This document shows positions 43,426-62,010 of a stretch of DNA of 64,000 nucleotides, piece by piece (position 1 is the first letter of the stretch; each line of letters starts with the position of its first letter). The notes below the pieces were generated by a model. The model was not told the DNA's origin and ran no database searches. It saw nothing but the letters and a program-made list of their open reading frames with translations. This stretch comes from a bacterium. GTDB taxonomy: Bacteria > Myxococcota_A > UBA9160 > UBA4427. The position numbers were made by a program, and so were the translations under genes. The stretch covers positions 62,001 through 126,000 of the forward strand of contig JANSYR010000004.1 in NCBI GenBank assembly GCA_024742285.1, written 5' to 3'.

Positions 43426-44028
43426 CTACCAATCGCTCCGGGCGAGCGCTTCCCGGACCGCCTCGGGGTCCAGCCAGAAATGGAAATCTTCGCGCACGTC
43501 CACGAAACGGATCGTGCCGCCCGCGTCCAGCAGGAGCGTGGTGGGGTGGGGGACCCCCTGCTCGATGGCCTCCGGCTCCTGTTTGAGGATCCCGAGTGTG
43601 CTGATCAACTCACTTCTGGGATCGGCGAGGAAGAGGATCCGGTTCGCCAGACCGAGCTCGTCGATGAAGAGCCGGCTGCGTTCGTTGATCTGCGACTCCG
43701 CCATGACCCACACGATCCTCAGGTCCGGCGTCTCCTCGAATGCCTTCCGCAGCTCGACGAGCCGCGCCTTCGTGAAGGGTCACCAGTCGACCGAGCGTTC
43801 GAAGGTCAGTAGGACACGATGCCCCAGGAGGTCTTCCCGGGTGAAGGCCCGGCCCTGGAGATCGTGGAGCGTGAGCGGCGGCAACGTCTGACCGACGGCG
43901 AGCTCGCTCACGAGGTCCGCCCGCACCCGGTTCTCCGGTCCGCGCGCCATGCCCTCCACCGAAGGCAGGAGGAAGTTCAGCACGAGCAGTCCGCCGATCG
44001 CGAGGCTCGCGAGTCCGCGCAGGATCAT
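43426..44028 (-). CDS. Predicted selenoprotein: membrane-anchored redoxin with in-frame UGA (Sec83)
   Basis: Read through one TGA (43780-43782), this is a 200-residue protein from the ATG at 44028. An N-terminal membrane or signal segment (about 6-22) precedes a thioredoxin/AhpC-TSA-like redoxin domain: VGQTLPPLTLHDLQGR, VLLTFERSVDW, then UGA, then PFTKARLVELRKAF. Related redoxins have Cys exactly there (motif DWCPxC), so UGA falls on the catalytic residue. The frame after it continues the fold to the end (IVWVMAES, HPTTLLLDAGGTIRFVDV). A SECIS-like stem-loop follows. Alternatives are a Cys-to-stop mutation or sequencing error. The ATG overlaps the upstream four-TM gene by ATGA. Confidence 0.75.
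43743..43778 (-). promoter_or_regulatory. Candidate bacterial SECIS element
   Basis: Starting one base after the UGA on the minus strand, CCUUC pairs with GAAGG, a 7-nt bulge follows, then CGCGGCUC pairs with GAGCUGCG (one G-U) around loop GUC. The loop G is 22 nt after the UGA, inside the 16-37 nt window known for SelB-binding bacterial SECIS. Read by eye; no folding energy computed. Confidence 0.6.
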
Positions 44029-44465
44029 GCGCTTTCTCCTTCGGGTACCGGTCCGCGGAGACAGCTCTCGGCGACGGTGGGTTTGGTCCAGATCAGAGCG
44101 AGGGCGATCAGCAGGAAGCCCGTGACCTCCCCGCGTAGCGCCTCGCCGGCGAATTCGTAGTAGTCGCCGATGATCCAGGCGACGAGTCGGATCACCGCCA
44201 TCAATACCAGCGCGACGATCGTCATCGTCCCGACCGAGCGCGACGCCCACGGATCCCGTGCGGCCCCGATCAAGCCACCGGACCAGCCGACGAGCGCGCA
44301 GCCGGCGAAGGCGACGAAGTAGTGACCGATGGGACCGGTCGTCACCAGCGGCGTCGAATGCGGTCGCTGATAGAGAAAGAAGGAGAGGATCAGCGCCATC
44401 CCGAACAGGAAGAACGCGATCCCCAGCGATCCCATCAGCACGCGGTAGAGGCGCACACGATTCAT
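44025..44465 (-). CDS. Four-TM membrane protein coupled to the redoxin gene
   Basis: The product is 146 residues with four hydrophobic helices (about 8-32, 45-66, 75-98, 110-127). No family is recognised. Its stop overlaps the start of the redoxin by four bases, so the two are made together, which suggests a membrane partner for a thiol/selenol redox protein. One Cys lies in a membrane helix (AFAGCALVGW) and one in the tail (AESCLRG). It is divergent from thiI (8-bp gap between starts). Confidence 0.8.
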   Translation of the reverse strand: MNRVRLYRVLMGSLGIAFFLFGMALILSFFLYQRPHSTPLVTTGPIGHYFVAFAGCALVGWSGGLIGAARDPWASRSVGTMTIVALVLMAVIRLVAWIIGDYYEFAGEALRGEVTGFLLIALALIWTKPTVAESCLRGPVPEGESA

Positions 44466-44473
44466 CGCCCGGT

Positions 44474-46069
44474 ATGATACCGCGCAACGAGCACAGGAAC
44501 TCCCGTCTGGTGGTGAACGACCCCGATCAAAGCAAGACCGAAGCGCCTCCGCCGTCGAACGACGGTACGAAGCCCGAGACGACGCTGCTCCTGCTGCGCT
44601 TCAGCGGCGATCTGACCACGAAGGCCGACGCCACGCGACGCCGGATGACGTCGCGCCTCGTCGAGAACCTGCGCACCAGCCTCAAGAGCAGCGGCCGCGC
44701 AGGAAAGGTCGTGAAGGAGCGGAATCGCCTCTTCGTCTCCCTGGAGACGACCCACGATCCGACGCTCCCGGACGACGACGCCATGGCCGCGCGCTTCTCC
44801 CGGGTATTCGGAATCCAGTCCGTCTCGATCACCCACGCGATCCCGTGGTCCGACCAGGACGAAGTGGTGCGCGAGGGTGAGGCCTTCGGCGCGCCCTATG
44901 TCCGGAATCGGAGCTTCGCGATCCGCGCGCGTCGGGTCGGCGAGAAGAGCAGCATCCCGATCAGCACGACCGCCGTCGAGCGCGCGCTCGGCGCAGCACT
45001 CCTGCCGCTCGCGACCCGCGTCGATCTGGGAAACCCCGAAGCCGTCGTCTTCGTCGAGATCGATCCCGATCAGGCCTACTACTTCTCCGCGAAGGAGCCG
45101 GGCGTCGGCGGCCTCCCCCTCGGAACGGAGGGCCGCGCCGTCAGCCTCCTCTCCGGGGGCTTCGACTCCCCCGTCGCCTCCTGGCGGCTGCTCCGCCGCG
45201 GCGTCGCCCTCGACTACGTGTTCTGCAACCTCGGTGGCCGACAGCACGAGCTCGAGACGCTGCAGATCGCGAAGTGCCTCGCCGACCGCTGGCAGGCGGG
45301 GACGCGCCCGCGCTTCCACTCGGTCGACTTCGACCCGGTCAGCCGCGAGATCCAGGAGAAGGTCACGACCCGCTACTGGCAGATCATCCTCAAGCGGCTG
45401 ATGTTGCGCGCCGCGGAGGCCGTCGCGGCGCGCTGGGAAGCCTCCGCGATCGTGACCGGCGAGGCGATCGGACAGGTCTCCTCCCAGACGCTGCAGAATC
45501 TCTCCGTGATCGAAGCCGGCGCGCAGCTTCCGATCCTTCGACCGCTCGTCGGCAACAACAAGGAAGAGATCATCGCGGAAGCCCGACGCGTGGGGACCCA
45601 CGACCTGTCGGCCAAGGTCGGGGAGTACTGCGCGATCGTCCCGTCCAGGCCGGCGACCCATGCGCGTCTCGAGGACATCCTCGAGGAAGAGGCCAAGCTC
45701 GATCCGGGCGTGCTCGAAGAGGCCCTCGCCTCGCGCACCCACTACGGGCTCACCGAGGTCGACCTGGCGGCGTGGGACGCGGAGGCGCTGTCGGCCCGTG
45801 AGATCGGCCCGGCGGACACGGTGATCGACCTCCGGCCGAAGGCGGCGTATGCGACCTGGCACTACCCCGACGCGCTCTTCCTCGACTTTCCGAACGCGCT
45901 CCGCGCCTACGCATCGTTCGACCCCGCCCAGAGCTACGTGCTCTACTGCGAATTCGGGCTGAAGAGCGCGCACCTCGCCGATCTCATGCGACGCCAGGGG
46001 CTGAAGGCGAGCCACGTCTCGGGCGGGCTCCGCGAAGTGCGCCGCATGGCCGAGGCGCGAACGACCTAG
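44474..46069 (+). CDS. thiI: tRNA 4-thiouridine synthase ThiI with rhodanese domain
   Basis: The product is 531 residues from the ATG at 44474; a GTG at 44513 is an alternative. The order is N-terminal ferredoxin-like and THUMP domains (about 30-190), PP-loop ATPase with LLSGGFDSPVASW (about 225-237) and GEAIGQVSSQTLQNL, then rhodanese (about 430-531) with the sulfur-carrying Cys in YCEFGLKSAHL (about 492). It adenylates U8 of tRNA and transfers sulfur; the rhodanese domain may also serve thiamine thiazole synthesis. The gene ends overlap the CWC gene tail to tail. Confidence 0.95.
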   Translation: MIPRNEHRNSRLVVNDPDQSKTEAPPPSNDGTKPETTLLLLRFSGDLTTKADATRRRMTSRLVENLRTSLKSSGRAGKVVKERNRLFVSLETTHDPTLPDDDAMAARFSRVFGIQSVSITHAIPWSDQDEVVREGEAFGAPYVRNRSFAIRARRVGEKSSIPISTTAVERALGAALLPLATRVDLGNPEAVVFVEIDPDQAYYFSAKEPGVGGLPLGTEGRAVSLLSGGFDSPVASWRLLRRGVALDYVFCNLGGRQHELETLQIAKCLADRWQAGTRPRFHSVDFDPVSREIQEKVTTRYWQIILKRLMLRAAEAVAARWEASAIVTGEAIGQVSSQTLQNLSVIEAGAQLPILRPLVGNNKEEIIAEARRVGTHDLSAKVGEYCAIVPSRPATHARLEDILEEEAKLDPGVLEEALASRTHYGLTEVDLAAWDAEALSAREIGPADTVIDLRPKAAYATWHYPDALFLDFPNALRAYASFDPAQSYVLYCEFGLKSAHLADLMRRQGLKASHVSGGLREVRRMAEARTT

Positions 46070-61225: not shown

Positions 61226-62010
61226 CGTTCGATCCCCTTGAGCGCCAGCTCGACCAGCGCCTTGTTGCCCGCCGGATCCCGCAGGTCCGCCAGCGGCATC
61301 GAGACCTTGTTGAAGAAGAGGATGTCCCCGGTCCGGGCTTCGACGAGAGCGACGAAGAGCTCCGCCGGCGTGGCTCCCGGACCGCCGTAGGCTCCGGTCA
61401 CGAGGGTCGCCGCCGCTCCGACCGCCACCAGCGCCTGGCGCTCGCCGGTCGGCACGTAGTCCGTCGCGATCATCAGCACGTACGCGTCCGCACGCGTTCC
61501 GTCGAGGAGCACGCTCGACTTCGGCCCGAGCGTGTAGTCGAAGCGCTCCATCTGCGCGGGGAAGAGCTGCGTCATGTCATAGGTGTGCCGAAGGATCGAT
61601 TCCTTCGCGGACTCCCAGAGGAGCCACGCCTGTTCGCCGTCGCTGACCGCAGGCTTCGCGTTCGGGTTCTCGACGCCCAACCGGAAATCCGGTCGCGGCG
61701 GATGGGTTCCCGCGTAGGGGACGAAGGTCTTGCCCGCGCGCTCGACGATCTCGCGCACCGCCGTCTGGGCGTGCTCGTTGGCCGCGTCGCTCCAGTCCTG
61801 CACTTCTTCTTCGATGTCACCGGAGGACATCGAGTAGACCGAGACGAGCGGCGGGATCAGCGTGATGCGGTCGAGATCGGCGAAGCGCACGCCGTAGTTC
61901 GCGGGCCCGCGATAGGGCGGCGGAACGGCGCAGGCGGCGGTCGACAGGACGACCAGGCACACGCCGAGCATTGCGCCCCGGGCGCTTCTCGTGCGGATTC
62001 GGATGGGCAA
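61222..62010 (-). CDS. Lipoprotein of unknown function, first gene of a four-lipoprotein operon
   Basis: The product is 262 residues. Lipobox LVVLSTAAC, then YRGPANYGVRFADLDRITLIPP. The middle has DAYVLMIATDYVPTGERQAL followed by a Gly/Ala-rich hydrophobic stretch, and the end has ARTGDILFFNKVSM, a pattern of lipoproteins that report or assemble at the outer membrane. No precise family is recognised. It overlaps the M48-like gene by ATGA. Confidence 0.8.
   Translation of the reverse strand: MPIRIRTRSARGAMLGVCLVVLSTAACAVPPPYRGPANYGVRFADLDRITLIPPLVSVYSMSSGDIEEEVQDWSDAANEHAQTAVREIVERAGKTFVPYAGTHPPRPDFRLGVENPNAKPAVSDGEQAWLLWESAKESILRHTYDMTQLFPAQMERFDYTLGPKSSVLLDGTRADAYVLMIATDYVPTGERQALVAVGAAATLVTGAYGGPGATPAELFVALVEARTGDILFFNKVSMPLADLRDPAGNKALVELALKGIER

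Follow-up and report, generated by a model that had tools for sequence, protein, structure and literature searches.

A probable selenocysteine-containing AhpC/TSA redoxin with a UxxT motif and an obligate membrane partner in a class of largely uncultured Myxococcota_A

Background

A TGA codon inside an otherwise continuous redoxin gene may mark a broken gene, the border between two genes, a codon read as an ordinary residue, or a site of selenocysteine (Sec) insertion, and the last of these raises the further question of what chemistry such a protein might carry out. Such a locus was analyzed in a 64,000-nucleotide stretch of DNA (positions 62,001 to 126,000 of contig JANSYR010000004.1, assembly GCA_024742285.1; hereafter, the window). 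Orthologues were searched for in 98 genomes, i.e., the one that contains the window (G000) and its relatives, and the redoxin was found in 34 of them. Once duplicates and one fragment truncated by the end of its contig had been removed, 34 distinct sequences were kept for comparison. The features of the locus are the following:

43426..44028, minus strand: probable Sec-containing redoxin gene of the AhpC/TSA fold (200 aa plus TAG stop)
43780..43782, minus strand: in-frame TGA at codon 83, almost certainly decoded as selenocysteine (31 TGA and 3 TGT/TGC in the family)
43748..43766, minus strand: SECIS hairpin with an 8-bp stem (arms 43766-43759 with 43755-43748, tri-loop GUC at 43758-43756)
43960..44025, minus strand: N-terminal hydrophobic helix, residues 2-23, a membrane or signal anchor (model pLDDT 92-94; kept in orthologues)
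44036..44041, minus strand: Shine-Dalgarno-like AAGGAG ahead of the redoxin ATG (direct sequence reading)
44025..44465, minus strand: partner gene for a 146-aa four-helix membrane protein, with a TGA stop that overlaps the redoxin ATG (ATGA, four bases)

Results and discussion

A conserved TGA within a continuous redoxin

The redoxin frame runs from 44028 to 43426 on the minus strand and consists of an ATG, 82 residues, the TGA as codon 83, another 117 residues and a TAG (MILRG...LLTFERSVDW-TGA-PFTKARLVELR...SDW-TAG), with this single TGA interrupting the 200-residue protein at U83, its active-site residue. Gene callers that take no account of Sec would report two false genes here. The preliminary description of this DNA had held that the frame carries on past the TGA for 117 residues of the same fold, and this was borne out by the Pfam family PF00578 (AhpC-TSA), which covers residues 45-175 across the TGA (E = 6.6e-13) and scores 49.1 bits against a gathering score of 26, placing the window protein within AhpC/TSA; the same profile matches 33 of the 33 family members at E ≤ 0.01. 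A mechanical 95-aa ORF at 43713-43426 would allow for two separate genes, the C-terminal half starting from the internal GTG at 43713, but the redoxin domain would then be cut in two and the conserved residues 84-105 left untranslated, and the comparative data refute this reading, to which we give next to no chance.

At the residue aligned with U83, TGA is present in 31 of the 34 distinct sequences (the window's own and 30 from other genomes) and Cys in the other three (TGT in L024, TGC in L031 and L058), with nothing else observed. The earlier claim that the TGA stands at the position of the active-site Cys thus holds, with Sec or Cys at residue 83 throughout the aligned homologues, and a conserved in-frame UGA at a redox residue with Cys-containing homologues is the pattern characteristic of selenoproteins. 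Amino-acid constraint persists downstream of the TGA, as judged from substitutions between L001 and L025 (pN 0.069 and pS 0.526 after the TGA; 0.125 and 0.555 before it). One in-frame stop in a draft assembly could also represent a pseudogene or a sequencing error, with no full-length protein made; however, the recurrence of this TGA in 31 distinct sequences, the purifying selection after it and the conserved hairpin described below refute this, and it can be given hardly any credence.

The three Cys forms are scattered among the Sec forms on the protein tree, and three separate changes are needed. One of them, L024, adjoins the window's own sequence; with TGT, 85% identity to this neighbour and a slightly damaged SECIS, its Sec/Cys switch is apparently recent. 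As Sec is found in 31 of 34 sequences, the simplest reading is that it is ancestral in the family and was followed by three later changes to Cys, with an outgroup that is too distant for a firm root.

The hairpin downstream of the TGA

Bacterial SECIS elements are hairpins directly 3' of the UGA with a small apical loop that contains a G (PMC1088965), and the Sec forms have precisely such an element, immediately downstream and with a small G-bearing loop. Taking the T of the TGA as 1, positions 17-24 pair with positions 28-35 around a three-base loop that starts with G, and 21 nt separate the UGA codon from the loop. RNAalifold on the 31 sequences returned exactly this hairpin. A SECIS-like stem-loop had been anticipated within 43740-43782; the hairpin lies inside this interval, is kept in the Sec forms and is degraded in the Cys forms.

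Stem pairing in the Sec forms reaches 99.6% of 248 cells, vs. 33-46% in controls with a shifted partner strand. As seven of the eight stem pairs are invariant in these forms, covariation is confined to one, the eighth, where three sequences carry a compensatory G-C in place of C-G (Glu to Gln, and Leu CTC to CTG); in the Sec form L026, the top stem pair is open. The codons are likewise fixed, with CGG for Arg +6 and CTG for Leu +10 in 31 of 31 Sec forms, while Ala/Thr at +5 and Glu/Gln at +9 use one codon per residue. The hairpin holds the highest 8-codon excess of synonymous constraint in the gene (0.44; elsewhere mean 0.03, SD 0.05), and synonymous divergence away from it is high, with a pS of 0.36-0.59 for the N-terminal part in six pairs. 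In the Cys forms, one (L024), three (L058) or six (L031) of the eight pairs are lost, and folding z-scores against codon shuffles are -1.1, 0.0 and 0.7, respectively, vs. a mean of -2.2 for the Sec forms. Since about 4% of codon shuffles of a single sequence give the hairpin, which makes it mildly unusual, the case for a SECIS rests on the family and not on one sequence. Rfam returned zero matches even at E 10.

Selenocysteine machinery and distribution

The genome of the window (6.5 Mb, 95% complete) encodes selA (E 1e-156), selB (283.9 bits over the cut-off), selD (259 bits) and tRNA-Sec (67.8 bits, anticodon tca, i.e., UCA), so that selA, selB, selC and selD, on which the preliminary description depended, are all found in the same genome. 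TGA reassignment is known in some bacteria, and the UGA might accordingly be read as another residue, by reassignment or by plain readthrough, with no selenium involved. Yet TGA is the genuine terminal stop in 20 of the 37 orthologue loci (a few of these loci are duplicate records) and likewise ends the partner gene in most loci, which means that it is not reassigned and that the internal TGA is special. The presence of the full sel machinery with tRNA-Sec, the occurrence of Cys and never Trp in the non-TGA forms, and a hairpin specific to the TGA forms also stand against this reading, which we consider very unlikely. On the evidence of sequence comparison, the redoxin gene almost certainly encodes a selenoprotein with UGA83 specifying Sec, which would be inserted, in place of termination, when SelB and Sec-tRNA(UCA) bind the hairpin past the codon.

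All 34 redoxin-bearing genomes contain selA. These include the three with a Cys form, which led us to reject loss of the Sec machinery as an explanation of the change to Cys. In the genome of L024 (G003), two selA matches over the cut-off were observed; this draft has 5.1 Mb, 91% completeness and 6% contamination, and the second copy may be a genuine duplication or stem from contaminating DNA. Across 378 sampled genomes of the phylum, the redoxin was matched within the class and not outside it; no relatives were found in viral contigs, and a plasmid search gave two distant matches (< 30% identity).

Two other Sec redoxins were observed in G000. The second one (L002:1405-1971, plus strand; match at contig C1:59134-59592) is a divergent paralogue with the motif FYRSAVWUPPC, a frame that extends well beyond the redoxin domain, no NCBIfam family above cut-off, and a hairpin with an 8-bp stem and identical spacing but of different sequence (CGCAGCUC-GGU-GAGCUGCG). 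The third (L003:1474-2196, minus strand; match at contig C1:777451-777900) has the motif RGHWUPYC, its own hairpin and N-terminal hydrophobic segments, and is located about 1.4 kb from selB.

A redoxin with a single reactive residue

The invariant residues of the family include E77, R78, S79, D81, W82, U83, P84, T86, K87, R89 and Q113, the last of which stands after the next strand (often ...NQ...) and recalls the catalytic Gln of glutathione peroxidases (GPx). Thr86 replaces the resolving Cys (UxxT) and is Thr in 37 of 37 loci, i.e., the redoxin lacks the Cys or Sec at the +3 position from Sec that marks the Prx-like UxxC/UxxU proteins. Additional Cys residues are lacking in 30 of the 31 Sec forms, the exception being L026, with a Cys in its anchor helix. 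The UxxT motif without a resolving Cys, first described for the window sequence, is thereby extended to the whole family.

The AlphaFold2 model (33-row alignment; pLDDT 85) matched one-Cys AhpE, Tpx and DsbE/TlpA/ResA structures in Foldseek, with AhpE 1xxu at E 4.7e-9 and a TM-score of 0.80 by target. Matches of the sequence profile to the PDB were mainly TlpA/ResA/Etrx-like thioredoxins, in whose alignments Sec83 and Thr86 take the places of the first and second Cys of CxxC, respectively. The peroxiredoxin motif PxxxT/SxxC is absent (residue -3 is V/L/I and -7 is F/L), and the GPx profile (PF00255) was matched neither by the window protein (E ≤ 1) nor by any of the 33 members (E ≤ 0.01). Basic residues (K/R) around the N-terminal helix average 3.0 on its C-side vs. 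1.1 on its N-side. Anchored redoxins of this kind act in the periplasm, but the basic residues on the C-side would also fit the opposite orientation, so that the domain may lie in either the periplasm or the cytoplasm.

We propose that the product is a membrane-anchored protein of the thioredoxin fold (AhpC/TSA) whose sole reactive residue is Sec83, and that its selenol probably reduces a hydroperoxide or a related oxidized substrate. Since the redoxin has no resolving Cys of its own, regeneration of Sec83 would depend on an external thiol or on the partner. As PxxxTxxC is absent and the GPx family is unmatched, peroxidase activity is proposed by analogy. The complete explanation, a membrane-anchored mono-selenol redoxin with peroxidase-type chemistry, is in our judgement reasonably probable.

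Alternatively, the selenoprotein could be a non-peroxidase, namely a mono-selenol thiol-disulfide reductase/isomerase or a deglutathionylase-type enzyme that acts on disulfides of proteins or small molecules in the envelope. The PDB profile matches, led by TlpA/ResA/Etrx-type proteins with Sec83 and Thr86 on the two Cys of CxxC, are in line with this, and the thiol-disulfide type is common among known Sec redoxins (PMC13188914). On the other hand, the invariant Thr at the resolving position argues against dithiol exchange and the best fold matches are the one-Cys AhpE and Tpx peroxidases, so that we regard a non-peroxidase as possible but rather unlikely.

The membrane partner

The gene directly upstream of the redoxin, in the loci whose flanks reach that far, encodes the four-TM protein. 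Its stop codon usually overlaps the redoxin start, as ATGA or TGATG, and a few loci have 8-104 bases between the two genes. A profile search for the partner alone recovered the 34 redoxin-bearing genomes out of 98 and, as a weak match, G066 (E 5e-9); partner and redoxin co-occur in 34 of 34 genomes (Fisher P about 1e-25, uncorrected for kinship), i.e., they form an obligate pair. The partner was modelled as four long helices (pLDDT 91). Neither Pfam nor NCBIfam assigns it to a family, all Pfam matches being weak, and Foldseek against solved structures gave nothing significant (best E 0.32). Its invariant residues are W61, W97, G100, R111, W126 and P129, with no Cys among them. A Cys relay through the partner was rejected, as the commonest Cys (position 56) occurs in 24 of 32 sequences and is thus not invariant, which makes a universal disulfide link of a simple kind improbable.

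On the opposite strand and divergent from the module, a ThiI-like tRNA sulfurtransferase, named from its sequence only, is located at 44480-46069 (plus strand) and is also found beside the module in many relatives.

The four-TM protein is a natural candidate for a tether or a reductant link. The preliminary description had suggested peroxidase-like or partner-dependent chemistry; both parts stay at the level of a suggestion, the partner idea with new support from the obligate membrane protein. A more specific version, in which the pair forms a two-component membrane module with the four-TM protein as the dedicated reductase or electron conduit of a mono-selenol peroxidase, recycled through the membrane and not by soluble thiols, seems doubtful to us.

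Comparison with known systems

Several known systems share part of these characteristics. MauD is paired with the membrane protein MauE, and the anchored redoxins TlpA, ResA and MauD, the first two being among the nearest PDB sequence matches, also combine an N-terminal helix with a redoxin domain; the window redoxin differs from them by UxxT in place of CxxC and by a partner unassigned in Pfam. With one-Cys AhpE and Tpx it shares the fold and, as in AhpE, a single reactive residue, but it lacks PxxxTxxC, has Sec for Cys and carries a membrane helix. The Prx-like thiol:disulfide oxidoreductase selenoproteins (PF00578; UxxC/UxxU) have the same AhpC/TSA fold with Sec first in a CxxC-type motif, and the UxxC paralogue L002 even has the F-x-R-S-x-x-W-U-P neighbourhood and SECIS spacing of the window redoxin; UxxT, no second redox residue, the N-terminal membrane helix and the obligate four-TM partner set the latter apart. 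UxxT is also the motif of GPx selenoproteins (PF00255; PMC13188914), from which the redoxin differs by the failure to match that family and by a thioredoxin-like Pro-Thr before the next strand.

A 2026 inventory lists 119 prokaryotic selenoprotein families, with TxxU (Prx) and UxxC/UxxU under PF00578, UxxS under cd02970, UxxT for GPX, OsmC-like and Grx-like proteins, and UxxC/T for DUF3179, and contains no PF00578 member with UxxT (PMC13188914). In NCBIfam 20.0 (June 2026), all scores of the window protein fall far short of the cut-offs (e.g., 20.2 bits vs. 120 for NF040769, SelL-related), and other members match the same models weakly. The openly accessible papers searched contained nothing on selenocysteine and Myxococcota. 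Given the absence of PF00578 with UxxT from the inventory, the sub-cut-off NCBIfam scores and the lack of a literature match, we rate the redoxin as a previously undescribed subfamily within the AhpC/TSA proteins that contain Sec.

Conclusions

The redoxin adds a well-supported selenoprotein subfamily (PF00578, UxxT), mainly encoded with Sec, across a class of largely uncultured bacteria. Its three separate Sec/Cys switches beside a fixed partner gene constitute a natural experiment, and recycling of the selenol by the membrane partner, if it takes place, would be unusual among selenoenzymes.
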